Positions 7,544 through 26,991 of a stretch of DNA of 64,000 nucleotides are shown piece after piece; position 1 is the stretch's first letter; each line of letters begins with the position of its first letter. The stretch is from Verrucomicrobiota bacterium (GTDB lineage: Bacteria > Verrucomicrobiota > Verrucomicrobiia > Chthoniobacterales > UBA6821): contig JAIOPL010000010.1 of the NCBI GenBank assembly GCA_021413925.1, forward strand, positions 62,001-126,000, given 5' to 3'. The position numbers were made by a program, and so were the translations under genes. The notes beneath the pieces were generated by a model. It worked only from the letters and a program-made list of their open reading frames with translations. It was not told the DNA's origin and did no database searches.

Positions 7544-7583
7544 GTGGGAAAAAGTGGGGCGTAGTGGCGAAAAGTGGTCTATT
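7544..7583 (+). promoter_or_regulatory. Putative MraZ operator: four GTGG repeats at 10-nt spacing
   Basis: GTGG occurs at 7544, 7554, 7564 and 7574, an exact 10-nt period, with AAA before three of the four copies. MraZ proteins of other bacteria bind arrays of short G-rich direct repeats at this spacing just upstream of mraZ, which fits autoregulation of the dcw cluster. A TTGACC at 7525-7530 would be a possible -35 box, placing the repeats over the -10 and start region. The -10 box itself is not clear. Confidence 0.75.
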
Positions 7584-7600
7584 TTCCCATTGCATCCCAA

Positions 7601-8053: not shown

Positions 8054-8168
8054 GCCGCATGAACCGATGACCCGCCTCCAATACAAACTTAGACGCAACA
8101 GATTCCTCAGGGCCCATCACGACCTCGCGACGACAACCTTCTCTCCTTCCACACCGTCCACCTATTTC

Positions 8169-9119: not shown

Positions 9120-9520
9120 GCGTGAATCGCCGCCGCACCACGAACGTAATTGAGGTGAATTATCTCGCTGGGTGGCTTACCATGATCTTTCTGATCGGCC
9201 TTGGAGGGCTTTTCTTCGTCTATCTGAAGAACCAGCAGCATGCGGTCGGCAATCAGTCTCGCATGATCGAGGCATCCCTCCGCGAGGAGGAGGCCAGGGA
9301 CGACGCGCTGAAGGCGAAGATCACCTCCATGACGTCACGCGGGGCACTGCAGCGCCGCCTGGACGATGGATACATAACGCTTCAGGCGATCCGCGACACG
9401 GCGATCGCCCGCGTCACGCCACCTACCCTGGCTGAAGTTGACGGGGTTCTGCGCACAGCCTCGCACGATCCGGAAAGCCGGTTCGGTCCCGGGGCTCCCC
9501 AGCGCGCCGTTAACAGGTGA
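9116..9520 (+). CDS. ftsL: FtsL-like division protein
   Basis: Small bitopic membrane protein of 134 residues. A short cytoplasmic start is followed by a single membrane segment (LAGWLTMIFLIGLGGLFFVY, about residues 17-36) and then a helical, charged stretch (about 40-85) likely to form a coiled coil. FtsL sequences are poorly conserved, so the call rests on topology, size and position: it lies between rsmH and ftsI and overlaps each by 4 nt, the usual place of ftsL. The C-terminal Pro/Arg-rich tail after residue 100 is longer than in E. coli. Confidence 0.75.
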   Translation: MSVNRRRTTNVIEVNYLAGWLTMIFLIGLGGLFFVYLKNQQHAVGNQSRMIEASLREEEARDDALKAKITSMTSRGALQRRLDDGYITLQAIRDTAIARVTPPTLAEVDGVLRTASHDPESRFGPGAPQRAVNR

Positions 9521-11256: not shown

Positions 11257-12776
11257 GTATCCCTGCCATGAATCTAGAAAACCTACTTCAATCCACCCCG
11301 GTGATTTCCGTCATGGGAAGTCCCGATGTCATGCTCACGGGCCTGAGTTGCGATTCGCGATCTGTCCGCGTCGGCGACCTCTTTTTTGCGATTTCAGGAT
11401 CCATTGAAAACGGAATCCACTATGTAAGCCAGGCGATCGAAAAGGGAGCCGTTGCGGTCGTGACAGATGAAGACATTTCCCGAAAAGAGATTCCCTCGAT
11501 AGAGGGGGTTCCTGTTGTGAGGGTTCCCGATGCGCGTTTGGCGATGGCGACCCTGGCATCTACCTTCTACGGACATCCCTCGGCATCGCTAGCCGTGGCC
11601 GGTGTCACCGGAACGAATGGCAAGACCACCACGGCCTGGATCATCAGGCATCTCTGCGATGCAGTCGGCCGTCCTTGCGGGCTTGTCGGGACGATTGAGT
11701 ACGTCCTTCCGGGTATTGTCGAGCCGGCTTCCAGGACCACGCCAGAGTCGATCGACCTGCAGAGGATGCTGGCCATCATGAGAGACGGGGGATTTCGGGC
11801 AGCATCCCTTGAAGTCTCCAGCCATGCGCTGATGCAGCACCGCGTTGGAGGGGTCGAGTTCGACGCCGCCGTCTTTACCAATCTCACCCAGGACCATCTC
11901 GACTACCACGGATCCATGGAGGAGTACTTCGAGGCGAAACGCATGCTCTTCACGGGACTTACAAAGCAGACCAAGAAAAAGGGTCGAGCGATCATCAACT
12001 CGGATGACCGTTACGGGCATCGTCTCCTCGACCGTGTTCAGGGTGTCCCGATCATCACCTACGGTCAGGGAAGTGGCTGTCATTTCCGCGCCAGTGACAT
12101 TGCTTACACTGCGGCAGGCACCATCTTCCGATTGGATGCCAAGGGAAGAAGCTATCTGGTCAGGACTCCGCTGATCGGTCTCTTCAATGTTTACAACACC
12201 ATCGCCGCATTGGCCGCTACCTCGGCTATGGGACTTGAACTGCGCCGTGCCATCGCTGCTGTAGCAACGATCCCCCAAGTTCCAGGACGCCTGGAGCGCG
12301 TTCCCGTAAAGCGGAATTTCCAGGCTTTTGTCGACTACGCCCACACGCCGGATGCGCTGGTGAATGTGCTCGGTACACTCCGGCAGCTGAACCCCGGCAA
12401 CATCATCACGGTTTTCGGTTGCGGTGGTGACCGTGACCGAACCAAGCGTCCTCTCATGGCGGCTGCCGCCGAGCAGAATTCGGATCGCGTGATTCTGACC
12501 TCCGACAATCCTCGCGGCGAGGATCCTCTGGAGATTATGAACGAGGCAGCAAAAGGCTTCCGTGCCCGGGGCCACGAAAGCTATGTCGACCGTGAGAGCG
12601 CCATCAGGCGTGCTGTGGAGATCGCGGCGCCAGGGGATATCGTGCTGGTGGCGGGCAAGGGCCACGAGGATTACCAGGAGACAGAGTCCGGGCGTCACCC
12701 TTTTGACGACGTCAGGGTCACTGCCCGCGCGATGGCTGGAAAGGAGTTTGATGAGAGGGAGGAACCGAGACGATGA
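11253..12776 (+). CDS. murE: MurE, UDP-MurNAc-tripeptide synthetase (meso-diaminopimelate type)
   Basis: Cytoplasmic ATP-dependent ligase of 507 residues that adds the third amino acid of the stem peptide. The ATP loop is GTNGKTT (120-126). The residues that choose the amino acid are DNPR (418-421), the motif found in enzymes that add meso-diaminopimelate rather than lysine. The segment FVDYAHTPDAL and the GGDRDRTKR loop are also conserved. It overlaps ftsI and murF by 4 nt each. This predicts a Gram-negative-type DAP peptidoglycan. Confidence 0.96.
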   Translation: MSIPAMNLENLLQSTPVISVMGSPDVMLTGLSCDSRSVRVGDLFFAISGSIENGIHYVSQAIEKGAVAVVTDEDISRKEIPSIEGVPVVRVPDARLAMATLASTFYGHPSASLAVAGVTGTNGKTTTAWIIRHLCDAVGRPCGLVGTIEYVLPGIVEPASRTTPESIDLQRMLAIMRDGGFRAASLEVSSHALMQHRVGGVEFDAAVFTNLTQDHLDYHGSMEEYFEAKRMLFTGLTKQTKKKGRAIINSDDRYGHRLLDRVQGVPIITYGQGSGCHFRASDIAYTAAGTIFRLDAKGRSYLVRTPLIGLFNVYNTIAALAATSAMGLELRRAIAAVATIPQVPGRLERVPVKRNFQAFVDYAHTPDALVNVLGTLRQLNPGNIITVFGCGGDRDRTKRPLMAAAAEQNSDRVILTSDNPRGEDPLEIMNEAAKGFRARGHESYVDRESAIRRAVEIAAPGDIVLVAGKGHEDYQETESGRHPFDDVRVTARAMAGKEFDEREEPRR

Positions 12777-14134
12777 ATCCGCTTTCTCTTTCCGAGATAG
12801 CCGGAATGTGCGGGGCAGCTCTTATTGCCGGCAATTCCGAAGATATAGTGCGCCGTGTCGCCAAGGATACGCGCTCGATCGAGGCCGGTGATCTCTATGT
12901 CGCACTCAGGGGGGAACGTTTCGACGGGAATCAATTTATTGCTGAAGCCGCTGCAAAGGGAGCCGTTGCGGCTCTCTGCGATGGTGAACCTCCGGCGGGT
13001 CTGCCTCAGGGGTTTGGTATTCTGGATACACAGGATTCCCTGACAGGACTCGCGCTCCTTGCCTCAGCGTGGCGGTCCAGACTCACACTGCGTGCCATTG
13101 CCATCACCGGCAGTAGCGGTAAGACCTCAGTGAAGGATTTTACAGCGGCTGTGCTTCGCTCATCCCTACGCACAACAGCAACCCTGGGTAATCTGAATAA
13201 TGAGATCGGTCTTCCTCTCTCCATACTGGCGGCCGATCTGGAGGATGAGGCTGCCGTATGGGAGATAGGAATGAATCACCGCCATGAGATCGCACCTCTT
13301 AGCGGATTGGCCAGGCCGGAGATCGGCATCATCACAAATGTCGGAACCGCCCACATCGAGCATCTCGGGAGTCGTGAAGAAATCGCGGCCGAGAAGGGGG
13401 ATCTTCTAGAAAAGCTGCCGTCCGGGGGATATGCGATCATCCCGGCTGAGGATGATTTTTCCAAGGAACTCGGTTCCAGAACATCGGCCCGGGTCTTGCA
13501 GGTTGGGTTCGATCGGGGAGACCTCCGGGCCACGGGGATTCGATACGGCATGGATGAGACACGTTTTGTGATCGAGGGAGAGTTCGGAAGATCCGAAGCC
13601 ATTCTCCCGGCGCCGGGTCGGCATATGGTCGGCAATGCCCTTCTGGCGATTGCGGCTGGATTGCAGTGTGGCATCACGCTGGAGAAGTGTATTTCGGGAC
13701 TTGCTGGCGTCACCTTGACTTCAGGACGACTGGCCAAGATGATCCGGCGAGGCGTGACTTTTCTGGACGACACCTACAATGCGAATCCCGAATCGATGAT
13801 AGCCGCTCTTGAGACGCTTGAGAGACTTTCCCTGCCGGGTCGCAAGATTGCTGTTCTTGGCAGGATGGGGGAATTGGGAATACATGCGGCTACGGGATAT
13901 GAAAGCGTAGGCACCAAGGCTGCGGTCGTACTCTCCACGCTGATAACCGTGGGTGAAGAAGCTTCCGCAATCGCTGATACGGCTTCGAAGGCAGGACTTT
14001 CGGATGTGCACGTTGTTTCTGACAATGCTGCGGCCGCCCAACTTCTCTCCTCATTTGCCACTCAGGGCGACCTGATCCTGCTGAAAGCCAGCAGGAGCGC
14101 GCGCATGGAGGAAGTCCTTCAACACTTCAACTGA
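12773..14134 (+). CDS. murF: MurF, UDP-MurNAc-tripeptide D-alanyl-D-alanine ligase
   Basis: Ligase of 453 residues that adds the D-Ala-D-Ala dipeptide, the last cytoplasmic step before the lipid carrier. The ATP loop is GSSGKTSVKDF (around residues 111-121). LGNLNNEIGLPLS, WEIGMNHRHEI, NVGTAHIEHLGS and DDTYNANPESM are typical MurF blocks. It overlaps murE by 4 nt and is followed 19 nt later by mraY. No anomalies were seen. Confidence 0.96.
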   Translation: MNPLSLSEIAGMCGAALIAGNSEDIVRRVAKDTRSIEAGDLYVALRGERFDGNQFIAEAAAKGAVAALCDGEPPAGLPQGFGILDTQDSLTGLALLASAWRSRLTLRAIAITGSSGKTSVKDFTAAVLRSSLRTTATLGNLNNEIGLPLSILAADLEDEAAVWEIGMNHRHEIAPLSGLARPEIGIITNVGTAHIEHLGSREEIAAEKGDLLEKLPSGGYAIIPAEDDFSKELGSRTSARVLQVGFDRGDLRATGIRYGMDETRFVIEGEFGRSEAILPAPGRHMVGNALLAIAAGLQCGITLEKCISGLAGVTLTSGRLAKMIRRGVTFLDDTYNANPESMIAALETLERLSLPGRKIAVLGRMGELGIHAATGYESVGTKAAVVLSTLITVGEEASAIADTASKAGLSDVHVVSDNAAAAQLLSSFATQGDLILLKASRSARMEEVLQHFN

Positions 14135-14153
14135 ACATCCAACCCATCACACG

Positions 14154-15272
14154 ATGCTCTATTACCTGTCACAATTCGGATCTCTCCTGCACGGGGTGCA
14201 GATAGGAAAAGCCCTGAATGTTTTTCAATACATCTCCTTCCGCGCTCTCTGCGCCGGGCTCACTTCCTTCCTGATCTGCCTGATGTTCGGTAATATGGTC
14301 ATTCGCCGCCTGGTCGAGCTGAAGCTGGGACAACCGATCCGAAGCGCCGAGGAAGTCCACCGACTCAATGAACTTCATGGCGGAAAGAAGGGAACCCCAA
14401 CCATGGGGGGTATCCTGCTCATTGCGGCCGTGGTTTTTTCCACTCTGATCTGGGCGCGTCCTGACAACCCTTTTGTCTGGATCTGTCTCATCACGGTCCT
14501 CTTTCTCGGAGCGCTTGGATTTTATGACGATTGGCTGAAGGTGACGAAGAAAAGTTCGGCAGGCATCAGCAGTCGTCTCAAGTTTGTTCTTCAATGCGGC
14601 CTCGCGGCCGGAATCACAGCATTCTTTCTCCTCTCTCCCTCTCTGGCCAAGCAGGCGCAGCAACTCTACATCCCGTTCATGAAGGGCCCTGTTTTAAGCC
14701 TCGGCATTTTCTGGACCTATATTTTCTATTTACTGATCATCGTCGGATCCTCGAACGCAGTGAATCTAACCGATGGACTCGACGGACTAGCCTCGGGATG
14801 CACGGTCATGGCCGGGATCTGCTTTGGCGTCTTCACCTATCTGGCCGGAAACAGCAAGGCGGCCCTCTACCTTCAGATTCCGTATTACGGGTTTTCCGGC
14901 GAACTGGCTGTTGTGAGTCTTGCCTTGGCGGGCGCGGCACTCGGGTTTCTCTGGTGGAACTGCCATCCAGCCAAAGTCTTCATGGGTGACACGGGGTCCC
15001 TGGCGATCGGAGGTCTGCTTGGCGTGCTCGCGATCTGCTGCAAGCAGGAACTGATGCTTGCCATCGTCGGAGGGGTTTTTGTCGCCGAGGCGCTCTCGGT
15101 CATCCTTCAGGTAGCCAGCTTCAAGCTGACTGGAAAACGCATCTTCAAGATGTCGCCGCTACACCACCATTTCGAACTTTCCGGATGGAAGGAAAACACA
15201 GTTACCGTGCGGTTCTGGATCATGGCCATTGTGTTCGGACTTCTTGGCATCGCCACCCTGAAGTTGCGCTGA
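14154..15272 (+). CDS. mraY: MraY, phospho-MurNAc-pentapeptide transferase
   Basis: Polytopic inner-membrane enzyme of 372 residues that transfers phospho-MurNAc-pentapeptide to undecaprenyl phosphate, making lipid I. About ten hydrophobic segments are visible. Signature motifs include GKKGTPTMGG, the Asp-rich FYDDWLKV, NLTDGLDGLASG, FMGDTGSLAIGG and the histidine motif LHHHFE. The length and order match the family. It sits between murF and murD in the cluster. Confidence 0.97.
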   Translation: MLYYLSQFGSLLHGVQIGKALNVFQYISFRALCAGLTSFLICLMFGNMVIRRLVELKLGQPIRSAEEVHRLNELHGGKKGTPTMGGILLIAAVVFSTLIWARPDNPFVWICLITVLFLGALGFYDDWLKVTKKSSAGISSRLKFVLQCGLAAGITAFFLLSPSLAKQAQQLYIPFMKGPVLSLGIFWTYIFYLLIIVGSSNAVNLTDGLDGLASGCTVMAGICFGVFTYLAGNSKAALYLQIPYYGFSGELAVVSLALAGAALGFLWWNCHPAKVFMGDTGSLAIGGLLGVLAICCKQELMLAIVGGVFVAEALSVILQVASFKLTGKRIFKMSPLHHHFELSGWKENTVTVRFWIMAIVFGLLGIATLKLR

Positions 15273-15281
15273 CCCGTGCCC

Positions 15282-16667
15282 ATGAACGCCTCATCCAATC
15301 CCTACGCTGGCAAGAAGGCCGTCGTCCTCGGCTTGGGGAGAAGCGGTCTCGCCGCGGCGCGCCTGCTCAAGCGCTCTGGTGCCGAGGTGACAGTCTGTGA
15401 CAGCGGGGAATCGTCTGTTCTTAGCGAACGGGCGGAACTCTTGCGTAAGGAAGGGATCAGCGTTCTCACGGGAGCTGATGCCGCGGGGGATTCCATCATT
15501 CACGATATCGCGGTCCTGAGCCCTGGGATCGAGGAGACGGCAGCTATCGTCGTGAATGTCCTAAGGAAGGGCATTCCGCTGATCGGCGAGCTCGAGCTGG
15601 CTTTTACGATCTGCCCCTTTCCGGTAGTCGCGATCACAGGCACCAATGGGAAAACAACCACGACGGAACTTACCACACTGATGCTCCGTGGAGCGGGACT
15701 CAGGGCGGCCTCCTGCGGGAATATTGGAACCCCCATGTCGGAGCTGCTGGACGGAGTATTGACCTGGGATGTGCTGGTTGTTGAGGTCAGCTCATTCCAG
15801 CTTGAGACCATCAAGACATTCCGTCCGAAGGTCTCCGTATGGCTCAACCTCAGTCCCAATCATCTCGACCGCTATCCCTCGATGCATGAGTATCGGGAAG
15901 CAAAGCTCAGGATCTTTGAGAATCAAACCGCAGGGGACTGGGCGGTGATTCCTGCGGATACAAAGGATCTGGAACTTTCCAAGATCAGAGCAAGGCGGGT
16001 CAGCTTCAGTACCACGGATCCTTCTGCAGATCTTTCTCTCAACGACAATCTTAGGATCCAGCATGAGGGGAAAGTGCTACTCGATCTGTCCACGACCCGG
16101 CTCCGCGGTCCACACAATGCCGCCAATGTTATGGCCGCCTTTGCTGCCGGCATCGCGCTTGGTGCCGATACGGGCATGATGGCCGATGCGATCCGGGAGT
16201 ATACCCCGCCGGCTCATCGCTGTGAATTCATCGGGGAGTATGATGGCATCAGCTGGATCAATGATTCCAAAGCAACAACCCTCGATGCCATGGAGCAGGC
16301 GATTCGCTCCGTGACGGGACCCCTCATCCTGATCGCCGGTGGAAAGGACAAAGGTTTTGAATTCCTACCCATCGCCGACCTTGTCCGTGAGCGTGTGAGC
16401 CTGGCGATTCTCATTGGTGAAATGCGCCATCGGATTGCAAGGGATTGGGCGCCTCTTCGCTGCCTCGAGGCAGAGAGCCTCCAGGAGGCGGTTTTGACCG
16501 CCCGAAAAGAAGCCAAACCCGGAACGACTATTCTTTTCTCACCCGGCACCTCCTCATTCGATATGTTCCGCGATTATGTGGAGCGCGGGGAGACATTCAG
16601 AAGGCTTGTGAAGGAATCCATGGGCACAGGGTTTTCCCTCACTCAAGGAGCCACACACAACCCCTAG
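15282..16667 (+). CDS. murD: MurD, UDP-MurNAc-L-alanine D-glutamate ligase
   Basis: Cytoplasmic ligase of 461 residues from the ATG at 15282; a GTG at 15276 is an in-frame alternative. The N-terminal Rossmann part shows VLGLGRSGLAAARLL. The ATP loop is ITGTNGKTTTTEL, followed by GNIGTPMSELL, EVSSFQLET, NLSPNHLDRY, and the C-terminal INDSKATTLDAMEQAI and LIAGGKDKG. These are all MurD hallmarks. It follows mraY after 9 nt. A 66-nt gap follows, so the LysM gene may have its own leader. Confidence 0.96.
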   Translation: MNASSNPYAGKKAVVLGLGRSGLAAARLLKRSGAEVTVCDSGESSVLSERAELLRKEGISVLTGADAAGDSIIHDIAVLSPGIEETAAIVVNVLRKGIPLIGELELAFTICPFPVVAITGTNGKTTTTELTTLMLRGAGLRAASCGNIGTPMSELLDGVLTWDVLVVEVSSFQLETIKTFRPKVSVWLNLSPNHLDRYPSMHEYREAKLRIFENQTAGDWAVIPADTKDLELSKIRARRVSFSTTDPSADLSLNDNLRIQHEGKVLLDLSTTRLRGPHNAANVMAAFAAGIALGADTGMMADAIREYTPPAHRCEFIGEYDGISWINDSKATTLDAMEQAIRSVTGPLILIAGGKDKGFEFLPIADLVRERVSLAILIGEMRHRIARDWAPLRCLEAESLQEAVLTARKEAKPGTTILFSPGTSSFDMFRDYVERGETFRRLVKESMGTGFSLTQGATHNP

Positions 16668-16733
16668 AAAAAATAATCTTTTAGCTCTTCAACAACCACA
16701 ACACCTAGTAAATCAAATAGGATACTCCAACCC

Positions 16734-17846
16734 ATGAATCCGATGACTCCGAAACGTACCCGTCGGCTCCGCGCTCGCGCTGCAACCATGCCCGCTCCAG
16801 AAGAGGAGTTTGAGGACTATGGTCCCGAACCGAACATGAAGCTCTCTCATGCCTTCCTGGTGGTTCTTCTTCTTCATGTGGTGGCTGTGGCCGGACTTTA
16901 CGCCTTTAATTCCATGAAGGCCGGCAAGGTCTCTCCCACCAAGACGGCTCGCTCCACCGAGCCTGCGGCCTCTCAAAATCAGCCATCGAACGGCCAAGGT
17001 CCCGGTAATGCCGGTGGTTCTGGTTCTGGCTCTGGTCCAGGCAAAGAGCCTCCAGCACCTTCCAAGGCCCCTCTTGTCGCCAAAGTGAGCGAGGCTCCCA
17101 AGGCAGTGAAGGCCGCTACTGAAAGCGTTGCCAAGCAGACGAAGCAGACCTCGACTGCAACCACGCCTCAGAAGGGATTACTCGCAAGCGCCGGGAACAT
17201 GATTGGGAAAACCCTTGGCGCCTCGGGCATCGGTGCCGCTGCTGTGTCAACGTCCTCTGCTCAGGAACCGGCGACTGCAACTTCCCCGGCATCTCAAGCG
17301 CCTCAAGCATCCCAAGTGGCAGGGTCATCCGGAATTCCCGCAACAGCGAACACCTATATGGTCAAGGCGGGAGACACTCTCACGCGCATTGCCTCCTCAC
17401 TGGGAGTGGCGATTCCCGAACTCGAAAAGGTGAACGGAATGACAGAAAAGTCCGTGCTTCAGGTTGGCCAGATCCTCAAGGTTCCTACCAAAGTGATGAG
17501 CCAGGCAGTATCTGATGTCTCGGCCCAGGCTGGAAAGGTTGTGGAAAGCGTGCAGCAGGCGCCTGCTGCAGTTGCTGGCGCAGTCACCGCGGCGTCTGCG
17601 GCGCTTACGGGAGCAACTCCAGCAGCGGATGCCGCTGCGGTAGCGGCACCTGGTGAGGATCAGGGGCCGACCACCGAGTACACCGTCGTCAAGGGTGACA
17701 GCCCTTACAAGATTGCCAAAAAATTCAAGATCACTCCCGATCAGCTAATGAAGGCGAATGGCATCACCGATCCGAAGAAGATCCAGATCGGTCAGAAGCT
17801 GAAGATTCCCTCTTCCGCTACGTCATCCAAGAAAGCGGCCCAGTAA
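16734..17846 (+). CDS. Membrane-anchored protein with two LysM domains
   Basis: Protein of 370 residues. An N-terminal basic cytoplasmic stretch (about 1-40) is followed by one membrane segment (AFLVVLLLHVVAVAGLYAF, about 40-58) and a long Ala/Ser/Pro/Gly-rich linker (about 65-200). LysM 1 lies near 205-250 (YMVKAGDTLTRIASSLGV) and LysM 2 near 318-365 (YTVVKGDSPYKIAKKF). LysM domains bind N-acetylglucosamine of peptidoglycan, so the protein should tether the membrane to the wall. No catalytic domain is present. Its position between murD and ftsW inside the dcw cluster suggests a role in septal wall synthesis. The leader is CA-rich without a Shine-Dalgarno sequence. Confidence 0.88.
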   Translation: MNPMTPKRTRRLRARAATMPAPEEEFEDYGPEPNMKLSHAFLVVLLLHVVAVAGLYAFNSMKAGKVSPTKTARSTEPAASQNQPSNGQGPGNAGGSGSGSGPGKEPPAPSKAPLVAKVSEAPKAVKAATESVAKQTKQTSTATTPQKGLLASAGNMIGKTLGASGIGAAAVSTSSAQEPATATSPASQAPQASQVAGSSGIPATANTYMVKAGDTLTRIASSLGVAIPELEKVNGMTEKSVLQVGQILKVPTKVMSQAVSDVSAQAGKVVESVQQAPAAVAGAVTAASAALTGATPAADAAAVAAPGEDQGPTTEYTVVKGDSPYKIAKKFKITPDQLMKANGITDPKKIQIGQKLKIPSSATSSKKAAQ

Positions 17847-17900
17847 ACGTCTCTAAAACCCTCTCGCAACCGTCGCAGAGCACTTCAGAATCCAGGAGCC

Positions 17901-19046
17901 GTGCAGCGCAGCAGCATCTACCTCCTCCTGATCTCCGTGGTCGGGCTTCTTGCCCTTGGAGTGGTGATGCTTTTCAGCACAAGCGCTTATGCCCAGGAGA
18001 GTCACGGTGACATCTACTATTTTGTCAAAAAGGATATCTTCTGGCTGATCATCGGCGTGGGGGTCTGTGTTGTGGGCGCGATGACCGATTATCATCTCTG
18101 GCAGCGCACGTGGAAAATCTGTTTCGGGGTCTCAGTCCTCCTGCTCGCTCTCTGCTTCGTTCCCCACGTTGGAATGAAGATCAACGGGTCACATCGCTGG
18201 CTTAATCTGCACATGCTTGTATTCCAGCCTAGCGAGTTCGGGAAAATCTCGGTGGTTTTTTTCCTCGCCTGGTGGTTTTCCCGCAAAGAGACGGATCCCC
18301 GGAAATTTCTGGACGGATTCGTGATTCCGATCGGTGTCGTGGCCATCATCATGGGCCTTATTGCCAAGGAGGTGGATCTCGGTACGGCAGCCCTCATTGG
18401 AGCGACGACGCTCGCCATCTGTCTGGTGGGGGGTGCCAATTGGGTGATCATCGCCGGACTTTGCGGAGTGGGACTTACGGGGCTGGTTGGAATCGCCATG
18501 CTGATTCCGGAACGCGCCGCCCGGATGATGACCTTCATGCATCCCGATTCCGACAAGTTGGGCAAAGGACTCCAGCAATGGCAGGCCCTAATCGCATTCG
18601 GCTCCGGCGGATTCGAGGGTCTTGGGCTCGGGGAGGGACGTCAGAAGATGCTCTACCTGCCCTACGCCCACACCGACTTCATCTTCCCGATGATCGGGGA
18701 GGAATTGGGACTCCGATTCACATGGCTCGTCCTCCTGGGATTCATTCTCATCATCCTCTGCGGTGGCCTGATCGCTGCCAATGCCAAGGATCGCTTCGGA
18801 AAACTTCTCGCCATGGGAATCCTCCTGTTGATCTCGTTGCAGGCAGCGGTCAATATCGGGATGACGACCTCGATGCTTCCCAACAAAGGGATGCCTCTGC
18901 CCTTCATCAGTTACGGGGGAAGCAACATGGCCGTTTGTCTCTTCATGATTGGAATCCTTGTCAACATTCACCGCACCGGCACCCCGATCGCTCCCGCTAC
19001 GGAGAGGCAGGTCGTCCTCGCGGGACGATCCGTTCCCAGAATCTAG
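17901..19046 (+). CDS. ftsW: FtsW, SEDS-family septal peptidoglycan polymerase
   Basis: Polytopic membrane protein of 381 residues that polymerises lipid II with FtsI. About ten membrane segments are visible, with SEDS motifs such as GSHRWLNL, FQPSEFGKI, KEVDLGTAAL, YAHTDFIFPMIGEELG and the C-terminal LPFISYGGSNM. The start is GTG at 17901, with AGGAG just before it. RodA is a related alternative, but the location between the mur genes of the dcw cluster favours FtsW. Confidence 0.94.
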   Translation: MQRSSIYLLLISVVGLLALGVVMLFSTSAYAQESHGDIYYFVKKDIFWLIIGVGVCVVGAMTDYHLWQRTWKICFGVSVLLLALCFVPHVGMKINGSHRWLNLHMLVFQPSEFGKISVVFFLAWWFSRKETDPRKFLDGFVIPIGVVAIIMGLIAKEVDLGTAALIGATTLAICLVGGANWVIIAGLCGVGLTGLVGIAMLIPERAARMMTFMHPDSDKLGKGLQQWQALIAFGSGGFEGLGLGEGRQKMLYLPYAHTDFIFPMIGEELGLRFTWLVLLGFILIILCGGLIAANAKDRFGKLLAMGILLLISLQAAVNIGMTTSMLPNKGMPLPFISYGGSNMAVCLFMIGILVNIHRTGTPIAPATERQVVLAGRSVPRI

Positions 19047-19055
19047 GAATCACGC

Positions 19056-20189
19056 ATGGCGGTCCCCAAACAATTCGTCATCGCCTGTGGAGGTACCGGA
19101 GGGCATCTCTTTCCCGGTCTTGCGGTCGCTGAGGTCCTGCATGACCGCGGCAATGAGGTCCTGTTGCTTGTCTCGGAGAAGGAGATCGATGCTGTGGCGC
19201 TGAGGGATCATGCCGAGTTCCGGTGCGAGAAGCTTCCCTCCATCGGAATGCCCGCACTCCTCTCTCCGGCATTTCTACGATTCCTGAAGCGGGGTTGGGA
19301 GAGCTTCAGCACCTGCAGGCAGCTCTACTCGCGCTATCAGCCCGCCGGGGTGCTTGGGATGGGGGGATTTACCTCCGCGGCTCCCCTGCTGGCGGCGCGT
19401 CTGTCAGGCATTCCCTGCTACCTGCACGAATCCAACGCGATTGCCGGCCGGGCTAACCGTCTCGCTTCACGTTGGACCGATCGCGTTCTTCTGGGATTGA
19501 AGGTCTGCGAATCCTCCTTTCCGAAGAGCACCTGCATCGTGACAGGAACTCCGGTGCGCCGTAATCTCGGGACCCCTCTGCCCAAGGGGGAGGCGCGTGC
19601 CGCATTCGGACTGGATCCGGAACTGCCGACACTCCTGGTGATGGGTGGGAGCCAGGGTGCCGCCGGAATTAACCGGCTCCTTTTCCGCTCGGCCGCTTTT
19701 CTGAAGGATTTTCGCAACGAAGAGAACAAGCCCCTGCAAGTCATTCATCTCACCGGTGAGCGCGATGACAACCTGGCCGCCATCAATTACCAACGGGAGG
19801 GAATCGCCTCTCATGTTGCTTCCTTCCATCACAAGATGGAACAGGCTTATTCCGCTGCCGACCTTGTGGTGTCGCGTGCTGGCGCGGCAAGCCTCAGCGA
19901 GATTTCGCAGTTCTCGCTTCCGTCTCTCCTCATTCCCTTCCCCTTTGCAGCGGATCTGCACCAGCATCGCAATGCCGAGGCCTTCCGGGATGCCGGCGCT
20001 GCGGAGCTCATCGAGGAAAAGACGGCGGACCCTGAATCCTTCTCTCTCTTAATCCGGAACCTCCTCACCGACGTCAGGCGTCGCGAGCGCATGGCGGCTG
20101 CAGCCGGCTCCGTTCTGCCGCGCGGTGCTGCGGGACTTGTCGCCGACGTCATGGAGCAGGGGATCGTGACCCGGGAGGCTGTGCGATGA
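19056..20189 (+). CDS. murG: MurG, lipid II-forming N-acetylglucosaminyltransferase
   Basis: Peripheral membrane glycosyltransferase of 377 residues (GT28 family) that adds GlcNAc to lipid I. The N-terminal loop CGGTGGHLFPGLAVAE, the VLGMGGFTSAAPLLAA region, the HESNAIAGRANR motif, VMGGSQGAAGIN and the C-terminal SRAGAASLSEI with the following P/H/Q stretch (PFPFAADLHQHRNAE) are all characteristic. It starts 9 nt after ftsW and overlaps murC-murB by 4 nt. Confidence 0.96.
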   Translation: MAVPKQFVIACGGTGGHLFPGLAVAEVLHDRGNEVLLLVSEKEIDAVALRDHAEFRCEKLPSIGMPALLSPAFLRFLKRGWESFSTCRQLYSRYQPAGVLGMGGFTSAAPLLAARLSGIPCYLHESNAIAGRANRLASRWTDRVLLGLKVCESSFPKSTCIVTGTPVRRNLGTPLPKGEARAAFGLDPELPTLLVMGGSQGAAGINRLLFRSAAFLKDFRNEENKPLQVIHLTGERDDNLAAINYQREGIASHVASFHHKMEQAYSAADLVVSRAGAASLSEISQFSLPSLLIPFPFAADLHQHRNAEAFRDAGAAELIEEKTADPESFSLLIRNLLTDVRRRERMAAAAGSVLPRGAAGLVADVMEQGIVTREAVR

Positions 20190-22567
20190 TTTCCGAGAGG
20201 AGATGCGCCGGCGTCCGTCTTGAGGGTGCCGAACTGGCATCATTCCTTCTCGGCCCAGCATCACGTCGCATCCACCTCATCGGAGTAGCTGGTTCCGGTA
20301 TGAGTGGCATTGCGGCACTTCTATTGGCCCTCGGTCATCGTGTCAGCGGTTCGGACAAGGTAGACACCCAGGAAGTCGAGCGCCTGCGCCGCAAGGGTCT
20401 CGACTTTGAGTCTCCCCACGGCAGCCGCATGGTCGGCGATGCAGAACTGGTGATTTTTTCTTCTGCGATCCATGCCGGCAATCCTGCCTTTGATGCCGCT
20501 CTGGCTCTTAAAAAACCGATGGCACGTCGGGCCGAAGTCCTGGCCGCCGTGATGACCGGCAAGCAGGGAGTGGTGGTCTGCGGGATGCACGGAAAAACCA
20601 CGACCTCAGCCATGGCCGCCCATGTGCTGCGAGCCGGCGGTCTCAAGCCTTCCCACTATGTTGGGGCTGAAATCCCCATCCTCGGAACGAATGCCCGCTG
20701 GGACTCAGAAGGGACGCATCTGGTGGCCGAGGGGGACGAAAGCGACGGCACGCTAGTCCATTACCACCCGCGCCACGCGCTAGTGCTCAACATCGAACCC
20801 GAGCATCTCGACCACTACCGGGATCTCGCCGCGATCGATGCAGTTTTTTCCAAACTGCTCGGCCAGACTTCCGGCAAGGTCTACTTCTGGGCCGACGATC
20901 CCGGCGCCACGCGTATCTGTTCCACGCACCCTGGGGCTGTTCCTGCGGGGACAGGATCCCACTGCCATTATCAACTCGCGGAGGTGGAACAGTCGGGACT
21001 CACGATCCGCTTCGCGGTTTTCCGTGAAGGGGAACTGCTCGGTCGCATCCATCTTGGGATTCCTGGGTTACATAATGCCCAGAATGCCCTCCTGGTGATT
21101 GCACTGGCGACTGACTTGGGAATTCCCTTTTCCGTTATCGCCTCCTCGTTAGAAGCCTTCCGTGGAGCGAAGCGCCGCTTTGAGCTCAAGTATCAGGACG
21201 AGGAGTTCAGAGTCTTCGACGATTACGGCCATCATCCAACCGAAATTGCGGCAACGCTTGCGACGGCCAGGGTTGCCCTCCGTGACGCCGGGAAAGAAGG
21301 GGAAATTGGAAGAGAGGGCCGTCTTGTGGTTCTCTTCCAGCCTCACCGTTATTCCCGCACAGCTTCCCTTAAAGCCGAATTCGGAAGGTCCTTTGGAGAT
21401 GCCGACCTCGTCTTTGTAGCCCCTATCTATCCCGCCGGCGAAGCCCCCATCCCAGGAATCGATGAGGGGAGCGTGGTGGAGGCAGCCCGTGCCGAAGGCC
21501 ATCAGGGAATCACGCGCGCTGCTTCTGTGCTGGAGGCGGGATGTGCTGCAGCAGCCTCTCTCAGAGAAGGAGATATGGTCATCACCCTCGGTGCAGGAAA
21601 TATCCATGAGGCAGGTGCACTGATCGCCCGGGAATTGGTTCTTCGTGGAAAGCTTCGCAAGGCCATGGGCCCGGGTGTCATCAAAATGTCCGAACCGCTT
21701 TCCCGTCACACATCGATGAGGGTCGGCGGGCCAGCGCGTTTTTGGGTAGAGCCCGAGAGTGAGGAAGGGTTTTCGGAACTTGTCCGACTCTGCCACGACG
21801 AGGGGATACCCTTCATGGTCATGGGTCGCGGATCCAATCTCATTGTCCGGGACGGCGGTTTTCCCGGTGTCGTCGCCCATTTGTCCAAGGGTTGCTTCGC
21901 CGAGGCCTCGGTGGATGGGAATGAGGTTGTCGCCGGGGTCGGGATCCGACTCAAGCAACTGGCCGCCGTCGCCCGCAATGCCGGCCTTAGTGGGTTTGAA
22001 TGGATGGACGGCATCCCGGGAAACCTGGGTGGGGCATTGCGCATGAATGCGGGTGCCATGGGGGTTCAGACATTCGATCAGGTCGTCAGGATTCGCTTTG
22101 CCGATCGTGATGGAAACATCGTTTCCAGGACCCCGGAAGAAATCGAAGTGCGCTACCGCGATGTCCCGGTTCTGCATGACCATTACGCGCTCTCGGCCAC
22201 GCTCTCCGGAGAATTGGCCGACACCGGAAAGATAGACGACCTCCTCGGCGAATCGCTTCGCCACCGTAAGGAAACCCAGCCTGTGGCCGCCAGTTCCGGT
22301 TGCATCTTCAAGAATCCCGGTGAGATTTCTGCCGGCAAACTGATCGACCAACTGGGACTCAAGAACAGCGCTATCGGAGGTGCCCGCGTCTCCGAAGTCC
22401 ATGCGAACTTCATTGTCAATGACGGCGGCGCCACGGCCGCCGAGATCCTTGCCCTGATCAGGCGAATTCAGGATCAGGCCCGTCTGGAGCGCGGGATTGA
22501 GCTGGAGACTGAGGTTTCCATCATCGGTGAAGAACCGGAAGATCACGAAAATACCCATGACCACTGA
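20186..22567 (+). CDS. murC-murB: MurC-MurB fusion: UDP-MurNAc L-alanine ligase plus UDP-MurNAc dehydrogenase
   Basis: One frame of 793 residues carries two enzymes. Residues 1 to about 480 are MurC: GVAGSGMSGIAALLL at the start, ATP loop GMHGKTTT (133-140), EGDESDGTL, and the C-terminal DDYGHHPTEI. From about residue 492 (the MGPGVIKMSEPLSRHTSMRVGG region) it is MurB, the FAD enzyme that reduces enolpyruvyl-UDP-GlcNAc to UDP-MurNAc: GRGSNLIV, GIPGNLGGALRMNAGA, the catalytic Ser in SSGCIFKNP and the Glu in SEVHANFIVN. The two reactions are consecutive. The fusion appears intact, with no stop or frameshift between the parts. It overlaps murG and ddl. Confidence 0.95.
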   Translation: MISERRCAGVRLEGAELASFLLGPASRRIHLIGVAGSGMSGIAALLLALGHRVSGSDKVDTQEVERLRRKGLDFESPHGSRMVGDAELVIFSSAIHAGNPAFDAALALKKPMARRAEVLAAVMTGKQGVVVCGMHGKTTTSAMAAHVLRAGGLKPSHYVGAEIPILGTNARWDSEGTHLVAEGDESDGTLVHYHPRHALVLNIEPEHLDHYRDLAAIDAVFSKLLGQTSGKVYFWADDPGATRICSTHPGAVPAGTGSHCHYQLAEVEQSGLTIRFAVFREGELLGRIHLGIPGLHNAQNALLVIALATDLGIPFSVIASSLEAFRGAKRRFELKYQDEEFRVFDDYGHHPTEIAATLATARVALRDAGKEGEIGREGRLVVLFQPHRYSRTASLKAEFGRSFGDADLVFVAPIYPAGEAPIPGIDEGSVVEAARAEGHQGITRAASVLEAGCAAAASLREGDMVITLGAGNIHEAGALIARELVLRGKLRKAMGPGVIKMSEPLSRHTSMRVGGPARFWVEPESEEGFSELVRLCHDEGIPFMVMGRGSNLIVRDGGFPGVVAHLSKGCFAEASVDGNEVVAGVGIRLKQLAAVARNAGLSGFEWMDGIPGNLGGALRMNAGAMGVQTFDQVVRIRFADRDGNIVSRTPEEIEVRYRDVPVLHDHYALSATLSGELADTGKIDDLLGESLRHRKETQPVAASSGCIFKNPGEISAGKLIDQLGLKNSAIGGARVSEVHANFIVNDGGATAAEILALIRRIQDQARLERGIELETEVSIIGEEPEDHENTHDH

Positions 22568-23480
22568 ATCATCCTTCGATCCCCGTAACCGTTGCCTTGT
22601 TGTTCTCAAGGGAGGCCCCGGTTCCGAGCGTGAGGTCTCTCTCCGCTCCGGTGCCTCCGTGGCCGCCGCACTCAGGAATGCCGGAGCGCATGTCGAGGAG
22701 ATCGAGCTTGCAGGCACGGAGGTGGCTATTCCGGAAGGGACCGAACTTGTCTTCAATCTGATCCACGGAACCTTCGGCGAGGATGGAGGGCTCCAGCAAG
22801 TGCTCGACGAACGTGGTGTAGCTTACACGGGTGAGGGGGCCGAGCAGAGTCGTGTGGCCTTTGACAAGATCCTGACCAAGCAGGCTTTGGTAAAAGCCGG
22901 TGTGCCGACGCCTCGTTTCGAGATCTTGCGTGAAGGGTCGCCTCCCACGCTTCCCCTGCCAATCGTCATCAAGGCCCCACGTCAGGGATCGAGTGTCGGC
23001 GTTCATCTCATCCATGAGCCTTCTGGAATCGACCAGGCCCTTGCCGACTGCCTCCTTCACGGTGAGGAGATCCTTGTCGAGGAGCTGGTGACGGGAAGGG
23101 AACTGACCGTGGGCGTGATCGGCGATCAGGTGCTACCTGTGGTCGAGATCAGGCCGAACGAGGGATTTTACGACTACACCAACAAGTACACCAAGGGAGC
23201 CACGGAGTATCTGGTGCCAGCACCCCTCTCTTCCTCGGAGACAGAAGCCGTACAGGTAGTGGCGCTAGCCGCAGTGAGCGCTCTCGGGCTGAGCGTCTAC
23301 AGCCGGGTCGACGTCCTGCTCACCCCTGCCGGCCCCACCGTTCTGGAAATCAACACCATCCCCGGAATGACGGAAACCAGCCTGCTTCCCAAAGCAGCGG
23401 CCGCCATGGGGCTCGATTTTACAGCCCTTTGCTGCAGAATAGCGGAACGATCACTCAACTCCCGAACTGCCCGCGCATGA
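22557..23480 (+). CDS. ddl: D-alanine--D-alanine ligase
   Basis: ATP-grasp enzyme of 307 residues that makes the D-Ala-D-Ala dipeptide used by MurF. Visible motifs are LKGGPGSEREVSLRSG, FNLIHGTFGEDG, the ATP-binding PIVIKAPRQGSSVGV, LVEELVTGRELTVGV and the metal site VLEINTIPGMTETSLLPKA. The ATG at 22557, inside the last codons of murC-murB (11-nt overlap), gives the family N-terminus; an earlier in-frame start at 22497 would add unconserved residues. It overlaps ftsQ by 4 nt. Confidence 0.95.
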   Translation: MTTESSFDPRNRCLVVLKGGPGSEREVSLRSGASVAAALRNAGAHVEEIELAGTEVAIPEGTELVFNLIHGTFGEDGGLQQVLDERGVAYTGEGAEQSRVAFDKILTKQALVKAGVPTPRFEILREGSPPTLPLPIVIKAPRQGSSVGVHLIHEPSGIDQALADCLLHGEEILVEELVTGRELTVGVIGDQVLPVVEIRPNEGFYDYTNKYTKGATEYLVPAPLSSSETEAVQVVALAAVSALGLSVYSRVDVLLTPAGPTVLEINTIPGMTETSLLPKAAAAMGLDFTALCCRIAERSLNSRTARA

Positions 23481-24451
23481 ACACACGACGCAATACTCGA
23501 GGGAACAGACGCAAAGGAGTCGGCCCCGCGCGCCGTCAGCACCTCCTCGAGGTGAATGTGCGAACGGCCAGCATGAAACGTCAGCATCGCGGCAAGGCGA
23601 GAGGCTTCCTTTGGAAAGCATTCTTCATCGTGATCGTGGCCGTCCTGCTGGCCGTCGGAGCGCGGATGGCCTGCGGGAAATTCTTTTTCAAGAACCCCGA
23701 ATATAATCTTAAGCACCTCGTCACCCATCTTAACGGGGTTCTGACCCTGGAGGAGTTGGTGAACCTGACTGGCTTCACCGAGGGGAAGAACATCTTCGGC
23801 CTCGACCTTGAGCAGGCGAACCAGAAACTGACTGCCCTTCCCGAGGTCCGCTCCGTGAGCATCGAACGGATGTTGCCCGACACCATCGAAGTGGGGTTGG
23901 AGCCGCGGGCTCCCGTTTTTCTGTTTGTTGCCCCGGGAGAGAGCGAAGCGGCCGCCGGTGAATCGTTCATCCCCGGCAAGAGTTTCCTCTGCGATAAGGA
24001 TGGAGTGATGATGCGTCCCGCTAGACTCGATGACAGATTCCTTGAGCTTCCCGTGCTTCGCGGCGTTTCTCTGGGCAGTGCTCTCCCTGGCAAGAAATTG
24101 GAGAGTTCGTCACTCGCCACAGCCCTCCTGTTAAGGCAGGCGCTCTCTGAACTTCCCGAAGAGACTTTTCGGATTAGCTCGATCGATGTTTCCAAGCCCT
24201 ATGCCGCCGTCGTGACCGATGCCTCGGGTGCGAAATTCACGTTTGGAACTCTTGGAGAGGCCGACATGCCGTCGCAGCTCGATCGTCTTCGCAAGCTGCT
24301 CGACCATTGCCAGGAAACCGGCCGCAAGATTCAAACCGCCAACCTCATGGTCAGTCGCAATACGCCCGTCACTTTTGTGCTTACGCCCGAGCAAGGGTCT
24401 GACAAAATAGCACCCGTGGCATCCTCCAAAAAAACCCCGAAGCATAACTAG
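23477..24451 (+). CDS. ftsQ: FtsQ/DivIB division protein
   Basis: Bitopic membrane protein of 324 residues. A basic cytoplasmic tail (about 1-40) is followed by one membrane segment (FLWKAFFIVIVAVLLAVGAR, about 38-57). Then comes a POTRA-like domain with the typical LTLEELVNLTGFTEGKNIFG and a beta region ending LPDTIEVGLEPRAPV. FtsQ links early and late division proteins through FtsL and FtsB. The ATG at 23477 overlaps the ddl stop; upstream starts are in frame but lie inside ddl. No ftsB gene was recognised in the cluster. Confidence 0.85.
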   Translation: MNTRRNTRGNRRKGVGPARRQHLLEVNVRTASMKRQHRGKARGFLWKAFFIVIVAVLLAVGARMACGKFFFKNPEYNLKHLVTHLNGVLTLEELVNLTGFTEGKNIFGLDLEQANQKLTALPEVRSVSIERMLPDTIEVGLEPRAPVFLFVAPGESEAAAGESFIPGKSFLCDKDGVMMRPARLDDRFLELPVLRGVSLGSALPGKKLESSSLATALLLRQALSELPEETFRISSIDVSKPYAAVVTDASGAKFTFGTLGEADMPSQLDRLRKLLDHCQETGRKIQTANLMVSRNTPVTFVLTPEQGSDKIAPVASSKKTPKHN

Positions 24452-24475: not shown

Positions 24476-25699
24476 ATGGCCAACGAGCAAATCTTTGTGG
24501 GACTCGAGATCGGAACGACGAAGATCAGCGTCATCGTCGCCGAAGCCAGGGCCGATGATCAGATTAGCATTCTCGGAGTGGGGGAGACCCCGTCACGAGG
24601 CGTGCGCAAGGGGGAGATCGTCGATATGGAGACGGTCACCGAGTGCGTCCGCGAGGCAATCCTCGACGCCGAGGACAAGACGAATGTTGAAATCGGCAAT
24701 GTCTGGGTCGCAATCACCGGTTCTCATCTGGCGAGCTTCAATAACCGTGGCTCCCTGGCTCTTCCCGGCGAGAGGCAGATCGAACCCGAGGACCTGGAGG
24801 CCGTGGAGGTGAATGCGAAGGAGGTCGCCATACCGACACCGAACACCTTTCTCCACACCATTCTGCAAGCCTACCACGTCGACGGAAACCAGAACATCAT
24901 CGATCCCCTCAAGTCGGAGGGAGCGCTGCTGGAGGCTGATTTTCACATTGTCCACGGGATTAAGACACGCATTCACAACACCCTCCGCTGCATCGAGTCG
25001 CTCAAGATCGGCATTGAGGATGTCGTGCTCAGTTCGCTTGCCAGTGCCCAGGTTGTGCTTTCCCAGGATCAGAAAAACTACGGGGCCCTCATGATCGACA
25101 TCGGTGGCGGAACGACCGATTACCTAGTCTATATCGACGGAGCCATCCGCCATAGCGGCGTGCTGGCTCTCGGAGGGGACCACATCACCAATGACATTTC
25201 CGTGGGGCTCAGACTGCCGATTGCCAGGGCTGAACATCTCAAGATCGAGGAGGGTTCAGCATCCGATCCGGCGGTTTCGCAGGGTGGGATTATCTCACTC
25301 AAGAACGACCCCAGATTCCTCGGCTGCGATGTCGACCGCGCTTCCCTTGAAGCGATCATTCACCTCCGAGTGAAGGAAATCTTCGAACTGATCCGCCGCG
25401 ACATCGAGTCATCCGGTGAGGGGATGATGGATCTCATCCGGGGGGTCATGATCACAGGGGGCTGTTCCAAGCTGAAGGGAATCGCTCAGGTCGCCGAGGA
25501 GGTCTTTGACATTCCGGTGGAGCTCACGCGCGCCCGTAATGTCAGTGGAGCCACCCAGATCTTCGAGGACCCGCAGTACTCCACCGCAATCGGACTGACC
25601 AAATACGCGAGGCTCGTGACCAAGAACATCGCGCCCGAGAGCATGATCGATCGCCTCACTCACGGACTTGGCAGCCTCTTCAAGAAACGTTCCCGATGA
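24476..25699 (+). CDS. ftsA: FtsA, actin-like membrane anchor of the division ring
   Basis: Protein of 407 residues with the actin-ATPase fold. The phosphate-1 loop is VGLEIGTTKISVIVAEA and the phosphate-2 loop is MIDIGGGTTDYLVY. The SHS2 insert region lies near residues 85-165 and the adenosine motif near IRGVMITGGCSKLKG. The C-terminal MIDRLTHGLGSLFKKRSR is the amphipathic helix that attaches FtsA to the membrane. All parts look normal. It overlaps the ftsZ gene by 4 nt. In this organism its partner FtsZ is degenerate, which makes the intact FtsA notable. Confidence 0.95.
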   Translation: MANEQIFVGLEIGTTKISVIVAEARADDQISILGVGETPSRGVRKGEIVDMETVTECVREAILDAEDKTNVEIGNVWVAITGSHLASFNNRGSLALPGERQIEPEDLEAVEVNAKEVAIPTPNTFLHTILQAYHVDGNQNIIDPLKSEGALLEADFHIVHGIKTRIHNTLRCIESLKIGIEDVVLSSLASAQVVLSQDQKNYGALMIDIGGGTTDYLVYIDGAIRHSGVLALGGDHITNDISVGLRLPIARAEHLKIEEGSASDPAVSQGGIISLKNDPRFLGCDVDRASLEAIIHLRVKEIFELIRRDIESSGEGMMDLIRGVMITGGCSKLKGIAQVAEEVFDIPVELTRARNVSGATQIFEDPQYSTAIGLTKYARLVTKNIAPESMIDRLTHGLGSLFKKRSR

Positions 25700-26991
25700 G
25701 CACCTCACCATCCCGTCGCATCCTGGTCGGTGTTGGCAATGCCGGTGTTACCGTGCTCGACCTGCTTTCCGTCGAGCACCCGGGCATGACCGGACTTCTG
25801 GCCGTCAATAATGATCCCGATTCGCTGAATGCCTCCATTGTCCGTGAAAAAATCGAGGTGCCCGAGGGAGATCCGGGGGAGGGTTTCCGCGTGATCGACG
25901 AGGAGTTCGGCCGGACCGTTGAGGGGGCTTCCGCAGTCATTCTTTGCGGCGGCCTCGGTGGTGAGACAGGTTCCTTCCTTCTGTCGGCCCTGGCCATTCG
26001 TGCCAAGTCGGCTGGCCTGACCACGATGGCCTGTGTCGGCATGCCCTTCTCCTTCGAGGGAAAGCACAAGAGGGACCTTGCAGAGCGGTCCTTGGAGAAG
26101 TTGCAGGAGATTTGTGATGCAGTGGTCGTGATCGGGAATGATCAACTCTCAGGCGGCTCTCCATCCATAGCCGCCGTGGGTGAGGCCTTCGTGCTTTCCG
26201 ACCGGACACTGCTAGCCGCGCTTCTGGCGCTGACCGGAATGCTCTCCACTTCGGGACCCGTGAAGATCACCCGTACTGACATTCACAATGTGCTCGGTAA
26301 ACCTGGGGCACTTACCCATTTCGGATTCGGGAAGGCCGAGGGATCCAATCGTCTCCACGAGTCGCTGGAAAGAGCCCTGAAGAGTCCCCTCCTGACGATG
26401 CCCGGCAAGGGATCGGCCCTCAAGGAGTCGTCGATGATTCTTCTTCTTCTCCGAGGGGCCAAGGACATTTCCTTTGCAGAGGTTCAGACCATTGTCGGTA
26501 AAATTGAACAAATTGCCGGTGATAGCTGTCAAATAAAAGTAGGAGTCCATGCGGATGGGCCTCTCGGATCAGCCTTGGAGCTCTATCTCTTGGCCTCTTC
26601 CGGAGGGACCGTCAGGAAGCCTGCCAAAACAAGTGAAAGCAACGAAACCGGCGAACCGATCAGTCCGAATAGCCCAATCAGTCGGATTGGGGCAATCGGG
26701 ACACAGTTGCCCCAAGCACCCCAACCAACTGGTGAGGAGGAGATGCCTTCGGGACACAGTGAAGGGGGAGAGGGTGCTGACGGGCTCTTTCCGGTTCAGG
26801 CAAGGCCTGCTTCCAAGTCTGGAAAGAAGTCCGCTGCCGCTTCCAAGCAGATGCAGGGCACGCTGGCTCTGGACACCTACCAGCGGGGTCGCTTCGACAA
26901 GAGCGAGCCGACCATCGTCGAGGGTGAAGATCTCGACGTTCCCACCTTTCTTCGCAAGGGGATCAAGCTCAACCCACCCAGCAGGAAATAG
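25696..26991 (+). CDS. ftsZ: Divergent FtsZ (degenerate tubulin signature and T7 loop)
   Basis: Protein of 431 residues at the ftsZ position. The fold is recognisable: VGVGNAGVTVLDLL at the start, LLAVNNDPDSL, and MPFSFEGKHKRDLAE, which matches the conserved PFxFEGxxR block. The tubulin signature GGGTGTG is replaced by GLGGETGS (residues 86-93). The T7 catalytic loop NxDFxD is KITRTD (190-195), so by motif alignment the first catalytic Asp is Thr. Residues 280-410 are a long variable linker. The C-terminal peptide DLDVPTFLRKG (412-422) matches the FtsA-binding tail. It is likely to polymerise and bind FtsA, but GTP hydrolysis may be weak or changed. Confidence 0.88.
   Translation: MSTSPSRRILVGVGNAGVTVLDLLSVEHPGMTGLLAVNNDPDSLNASIVREKIEVPEGDPGEGFRVIDEEFGRTVEGASAVILCGGLGGETGSFLLSALAIRAKSAGLTTMACVGMPFSFEGKHKRDLAERSLEKLQEICDAVVVIGNDQLSGGSPSIAAVGEAFVLSDRTLLAALLALTGMLSTSGPVKITRTDIHNVLGKPGALTHFGFGKAEGSNRLHESLERALKSPLLTMPGKGSALKESSMILLLLRGAKDISFAEVQTIVGKIEQIAGDSCQIKVGVHADGPLGSALELYLLASSGGTVRKPAKTSESNETGEPISPNSPISRIGAIGTQLPQAPQPTGEEEMPSGHSEGGEGADGLFPVQARPASKSGKKSAAASKQMQGTLALDTYQRGRFDKSEPTIVEGEDLDVPTFLRKGIKLNPPSRK

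Follow-up and report, generated by a model that had tools for sequence, protein, structure and literature searches.

An FtsZ lacking canonical GTPase motifs in a freshwater family of Chthoniobacterales

Results

The ftsZ locus

The window analysed here is a stretch of 64,000 nucleotides from Verrucomicrobiota contig JAIOPL010000010.1. It carries a dcw set made up of mraZ, rsmH, ftsI, murE, murF, mraY, murD, ftsW, murG, a murC-murB fusion, ddl, ftsQ, ftsA and ftsZ, in agreement with an earlier sequence-only reading that had described an otherwise complete cluster with ftsA next door. FtsA, FtsQ, FtsW, FtsI, FtsK and MreB are each encoded. The ftsZ frame is uninterrupted, its start overlaps the last codons of ftsA, directly upstream, and ftsA was likewise found on the ftsZ loci of the family to which this genome belongs (family f1, see below). 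A gene for a LysM-domain protein (16734-17846) lies between murD and ftsW within the cluster. The features are listed below by window position; residues named for comparison (N43, Gln47, Gly107, Arg142, N207, D209, D212 and so on) follow E. coli numbering, given in brackets where it accompanies the protein's own.

7574-23480, +, remaining dcw genes: mraZ, rsmH, murE, murF, mraY, murD, murG, murC-murB fusion, ddl
9517-11256, +, ftsI
17901-19046, +, ftsW
23429-24451, +, ftsQ, with a POTRA domain
24476-25699, +, ftsA, 407 aa, slow-evolving
25696-26991, +, ftsZ (derived FtsZ), 431 aa, from the ORF and from profile and structure matches
25729-25746, +, T1 loop GVGNAG (GVGGGG in E. coli)
25807-25821, +, T2/H2 N38-D42 (NNDPD), with N43 and D45 retained and Gln47 replaced by Asp
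25864-25869, +, T3 junction E57-G58, site of a nine-residue deletion of the gamma-phosphate loop
25951-25974, +, T4 GLGGETGS, with E90 in place of Gly107
26056-26070, +, E121 (E138, retained) to K125 (Arg142 replaced by Lys)
26137-26202, +, guanine-side residues N148 (N165), F165 (F182) and D169 (position 186), all retained
26254-26280, +, T7 G187-D195, GPVKITRTD, with K190 (N207), T192 (D209), R193 (F210) and D195 (D212)
26602-26844, +, disordered, fast-evolving linker (low pLDDT; dN/dS about 0.14-0.70)
26881-26967, +, conserved C-terminal tail QRGRFDKSEPTIVEGEDLDVPTFLRKGIK with the predicted FtsA-binding peptide

Identity and copy number

The ftsZ product matched the Pfam models Tubulin (PF00091, 8.7e-14) and FtsZ_C (PF12327, 4.1e-8), both above cut-off, and scored 113 bits with the NCBIfam ftsZ equivalog TIGR00065, whose cut-off is 295.2 bits. 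In an AlphaFold monomer model built on an alignment of 50 relatives the core reached a pLDDT of ~95, and the best 50 matches listed by Foldseek against the PDB were all FtsZ (1rlu_A: TM 0.83, 25% identity). At the level of motifs, the canonical T4 signature GGGTGTG is replaced by GLGGETGS, and the T3 motif GxGAG, which contacts the gamma-phosphate, is deleted here as in all 20 family f1 members compared. As judged from these data, descent and position mark the protein as an FtsZ orthologue, one that does not carry the motifs of a canonical GTP-hydrolysing FtsZ.

The sequence-only reading had allowed for a second ftsZ or a BtubA/B pair elsewhere in the genome (2.4 Mb, 95.5% complete); a search of it with the Tubulin model detected no second FtsZ or tubulin. 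Nor does the protein itself belong with BtubA/BtubB, being the product of a single gene that scores 53 bits with that model, against about 177-199 bits for BtubA/B-like pairs elsewhere in the class. Throughout family f1 there is one ftsZ copy per genome. In another genome (G243, contigs C9 and C1), five tubulin/FtsZ matches comprise two BtubA/B-like pairs and one FtsZ-like gene.

Distribution of the derived type

Family f1 consists of freshwater 'Spartobacteria'/Chthoniobacterales MAGs, UBA6821 included, and the isolate names apparently point to lakes or reservoirs for many of them. Among its 22 genomes, 20 have a readable ftsZ core, in one (G021) only a fragment lies at the edge of a contig, and ftsZ went undetected in one that is 86% complete; no FtsZ match was found in G020 or G050, each 86% complete, probably through incompleteness. 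The derived type is common to all 20 readable genomes. When a family f1 profile was run against 213 genomes of the order, the family's own members clearly outscored all others, which within this set confines the type to family f1. A MAG labelled 'Proteobacteria bacterium' (L091, RFPR01000018.1) carries a family f1 ftsZ and is probably mislabelled.

Changes in the nucleotide pocket

The family was compared with 33 sequences drawn from 12 other order families. T3 residues G69 and A70 are missing from 20/20 family f1 members, while G69 and G71 are present in 33/33 of the other sequences; in predicted models the turn from strand to helix takes 5 residues here and 14 in an order-mate. The possibility that this gap is an alignment artefact was rejected, as it was stable over three gap settings and three references. 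Gly107 of T4 is retained in 2/20 members against 33/33 elsewhere in the order, the family having Glu (15), Asp (2), Val (1) or Gly (2) at this position. Gln47, kept in 25/33 of the other sequences, is kept in none of the 20 and is Glu or Asp in 19. Position 142, Arg in 32/33 order sequences, is Lys in 13 members, Arg in three and Thr or Ala in four. The T1 change of G20 to Asn occurs in 20/20 members and also in 13/33 sequences of other families. Unchanged are the residues that we take to face the guanosine, as in established FtsZ structures: E138, N165, F182 and an Asp at position 186.

On the T7 side, position 207 is Lys or Arg and position 210 Arg or Lys in every one of the 20 members. Basic residues at both positions together, or an acid at 107, were found in 0/154 of the other sequences, and T7 (204-212) carries a net charge of +1 or more in 20/20 members and in 0/154 others, E. 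coli having -2. Mean charge over the phosphate-facing loops is -2.75 in family f1 and, with f2 set aside, +0.67 in the order's other families; the E. coli value is +2. Charge is, on these alignments, reversed at the interface between nucleotide pocket and T7 in family f1; acidic pocket loops do occur elsewhere in the phylum, without the basic T7. A rough check of ten relatives added later from the next-best-scoring families found T4 and T7 readable in eight, all with GGG and without paired basic residues, and T3 readable and intact in seven, the pattern match falling at other sites in the remainder.

Other Verrucomicrobiota FtsZs, in separate lineages, are also degenerate. L160 (PSRM01000190.1) has a T3 with a ~35-residue P/S/T-rich insert and T4 GGNAG; L189 (G318) has no T3 and T4 GGKTG; and in L158 (MWDV01000094.1) T3 is rewritten or missing. 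All three keep the C-terminal tail, and they suggest that T3 has been lost or rewritten repeatedly. Families f16, f31 and f40-f42 (e.g. L166, L184, L190) matched FtsZ very weakly and show additional degeneration of the pocket motifs; the f31 sequences lack N165, and some of these genomes have two tubulin-superfamily matches.

The T7 loop across the phylum

The sequence-only reading had given T4 as GLGGETGS and T7 as KITRTD without its first Asp, and the translation bears both out; it had also left room for that Asp elsewhere in the loop, and the alignment shows no such relocation. T7 reads K-I-T-R-T-D here and N-V-D-F-A-D in E. coli. However, the loss of Asp209, which was what had made the protein appear notable, does not set it apart: N207 and D209 were each found in 0/33 sequences from the 12 other order families, so that the first-Asp loss is an old lineage trait, and we rejected it as a distinguishing mark. 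In class families f15 and f18, D209 is likewise present in 0/4 sequences, one of which comes from a genome that also encodes bacterial tubulins. The full N-x-D-x-x-D triad occurs in only 6/174 sampled Verrucomicrobiota FtsZs, the other 168 departing from it as this protein does, in a sample that is weighted to Chthoniobacterales and in which the T7 alignment is uncertain for the weakest sequences. Class families f14, f17, f21 and f22 (e.g. L061, L063, L196, L197, L204) show the reverse of the Chthoniobacterales pattern, with N207 and D209 in 25/25 sequences and D212 lost in 25/25. The remaining T7 Asp, D212, is retained here and in 17/20 family f1 members, three members of genus g2 having His instead. 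Position 211, Thr in this protein, is an additional acid in many order-mates (GFDD).

Selection and history

In close pairs, dN/dS was 0.05-0.12 for the core, about 0.14-0.70 for the linker and 0-0.075 for the tail; the core is under strong purifying selection and the tail under stronger still. The tail of this protein, GEDLDVPTFLRKG, includes the peptide DLDVPTFLRKG, whose core residues are invariant over family f1, and the sequences uphold the earlier view of a conserved, predicted FtsA-binding tail.

A tree inferred with the T3, T4 and T7 columns left out placed family f1 in a single clade (SH-aLRT 99) near f7, f8 and f10, with f2 as a possible sister, a placement that calls for caution given the long branches. 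The stem of the family measures 0.79 changes per site for FtsZ and 0.22 for FtsA of the same genomes; as FtsZ and FtsA distances stand at about 1.5:1 in the core of the order, FtsZ was accelerated on this stem. Order-conserved columns were changed in 17/63 cases for FtsZ against 8/108 for FtsA (Fisher p = 0.001); within FtsZ, the nucleotide loops showed no significant excess of changed columns (12/38 vs 5/25, Fisher p = 0.39). The charge pattern had a single origin, on a long stem, so its presence in 20/20 members counts as one event followed by conservation. Within the family, positions 207 and 210 exchange only like charge; the tree shows three residue changes between K and R at 207, with the charge constant throughout. 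To judge from the alignments, the pattern suggests an interface that was remodelled and has since come under constraint, rather than decay. Family-specific loss of MinC or ZapA was considered as a cause and rejected, since Pfam models detected neither in any of the 56 relatives of the order sample searched.

Discussion

Our data leave the earlier observation largely right, place the emphasis elsewhere, and make the underlying phenomenon stronger than it had appeared. The sequence-only reading had missed the T3 deletion, the loss of Gln47, the loss of Arg142 in most members and the two new conserved basic residues of T7. Its proposal of a filament with little or altered GTP turnover gains support from the T3 deletion, the Gly-to-Glu change in T4 and the reversed interface charge, but the reason it gave, the T7 Asp, falls away, this residue being lost order-wide.

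The significance of these changes can be gauged from the S. aureus FtsZ filament, whose numbering is that of E. coli plus one. There, T7 of one subunit meets the phosphates, Mg2+ and K+ of its neighbour; D210 and D213 in the T7 of one subunit, with G72 in the T3 of the next, hold the catalytic water; N208 and Q48 hold K+ across the interface; R143 behaves like an arginine finger, R143K lowering GTPase activity about 6-fold; and N208L, D210N and D213N abolish assembly (PMC8936486). Family f1 has no equivalents of G72, D210, N208 and Q48, and its position 143 is mostly the equivalent of R143K. As several residues critical for assembly or GTPase activity in S. aureus are missing from the native protein, it must work differently, and from these absences we infer that family f1 FtsZ would not run the usual GTP cycle.

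We tentatively favour the reading that the single, vertically inherited ftsZ encodes a working division scaffold with a rebuilt GTP site, whose subunit contact would do without a gamma-phosphate cycle. By alignment, the protein has lost the T3 loop, the third T4 glycine, Gln47, mostly Arg142, and Asn207 and Asp209 of T7; it has kept the guanine side of the pocket, the fold and the FtsA tail, with acids now placed on the phosphate side of the pocket and a pair of basic residues on T7. FtsA binding and filament formation would be retained, with a subunit contact independent of the GTP gamma-phosphate. Lys or Arg stands where Asn held K+, and Asp or Glu where Gln stood, as if a covalent positive charge had replaced the ion and acids had replaced the phosphate; Lys190 and Arg193 of one subunit are suggested to meet Asp42 and Glu90 of the next, taking over the roles of K+ and phosphate. 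GDP or guanosine may be bound as a structural cofactor. With no GTP cycle, ring turnover would need another source, such as FtsA, wall synthesis or proteolysis. The strongest form of this proposal, in which direct acid-base pairs of the protein replace the K+/phosphate bridge and the Z-ring of a whole family polymerises without a gamma-phosphate/GTP cycle, we regard as rather doubtful. Against the scaffold reading as a whole speaks Asp212, kept in 17/20 members and not obviously needed by a protein that would not hydrolyse GTP. The single origin of the charge pattern, the lack of significant enrichment of changed columns in the nucleotide loops and the acidic pocket loops found in other parts of the phylum also count against it.

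That same residue, together with the retained guanine side, would fit an enzyme in which Lys190 and Arg193 reach in trans to the GTP/GDP phosphates of the neighbour, replacing Arg142, K+ and T3, with GTP response or hydrolysis by other chemistry. In known filaments T7 does enter the nucleotide site of the adjoining subunit (PMC8936486), and the basic pair is conserved in 20/20; however, the acids at 107 and 47 would repel phosphates unless they bind metal, and T3 is lost, so we consider this unlikely.

Alternatively, the protein could be an ordinary but slow FtsZ that binds GTP and polymerises, with low turnover through Asp212 and backbone contacts, its changes being drift tolerated in a lineage pre-adapted to a weak T7. 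An entire order retains FtsZ without N207 and D209, Asp212 is mostly kept, the stem branch is long, and the nucleotide loops hold no significant concentration of the changed columns. This too we judge unlikely, and slightly more so, as no other family of the order varies in T3 or Gly107, like-for-like exchange has preserved the new charges, and three genus g2 members have His at 212.

The tail as the most constrained part, beside a linker free to vary, might instead indicate an adaptor that partners FtsA without forming filaments, the septum being organised by FtsA or wall enzymes, and the FtsZ of Nitrosopumilus maritimus, with degenerate motifs, is non-polymerising in yeast (PMC3684127). The strong constraint on the core, T7 interface included, makes such an adaptor improbable. 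An error of frame or assembly, or a decaying gene whose place has been taken by a second FtsZ that escaped detection, could be suspected from the weak family score, from the MAG data and from a genome that is 95.5% complete, but intact frames, dN/dS well below 1, the recurrence of the same features in 20 genomes and a single ftsZ copy per genome rule this out for the family overall and leave it a very slight chance here.

Published work counts verrucomicrobial FtsZs among the most divergent of Bacteria (PMC9871819, PMC1845146). With the canonical FtsZs of E. coli, S. aureus and M. tuberculosis the protein shares the fold, FtsZ_C, the guanine-side residues, an FtsA-type tail and the dcw position by ftsA; unlike them it has no T3, has Glu for Gly107, a basic T7 without Asn207 and Asp209, an acid at 47 and a sub-cut-off NCBIfam score. 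Other Chthoniobacterales and Verrucomicrobiales-like families have, as family f1 has, lost Asp209 and mostly kept Asp212, and the tail RGRFEKSEPTI..GEDLDVPTFLR is nearly identical between order-mates and family f1, but their FtsZs retain T3, Arg142 and the GGG of T4, and their T7 is acidic or neutral. Verrucomicrobium spinosum FtsZ, likewise divergent in sequence, in a dcw context and from the same phylum, was in contrast published as canonical, with the signature GGGTGSG (PMC1845146); ftsZ and ftsA are essential in that species (PMC12283558). The nearest analogue is N. maritimus FtsZ, whose GTP-binding motif (AGKAGSA) and T7 are degenerate (PMC3684127); Cdv is the presumed division machinery of that archaeon, whereas here FtsA, the tail and dcw are intact and ftsZ is the sole tubulin-family candidate found. 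In the openly accessible papers that our literature search covered, neither a T3 deletion nor a charge swap in FtsZ was described.

Division with a hydrolysis-poor FtsZ has a precedent. As summarised in PMC4383033, E. coli FtsZ(D212A/G) is hydrolysis-deficient, with low-GTPase filaments that still yield septa, and FtsZ(D212G) is reported to be functional in division and able to constrict liposomes. Unlike the present protein, these mutants carry one laboratory substitution each in a pocket that is intact elsewhere, and they were studied partly beside wild-type FtsZ.

Conclusions

Most of the Verrucomicrobiota FtsZs sampled lack part of the T7 catalytic set that is often taken as universal, opposite Asp residues being lost by lineage. 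Laboratory mutants have been used to ask whether the GTP cycle and treadmilling of FtsZ are essential to constriction or serve mainly to place wall synthesis. Family f1 offers a natural experiment, with one FtsZ that has no T3 and a charge-reversed interface beside intact FtsA and wall enzymes. Because the GTP machinery appears largely lost and the protein is nonetheless preserved by selection, the family would provide a natural test of the division ring's need for GTP turnover.
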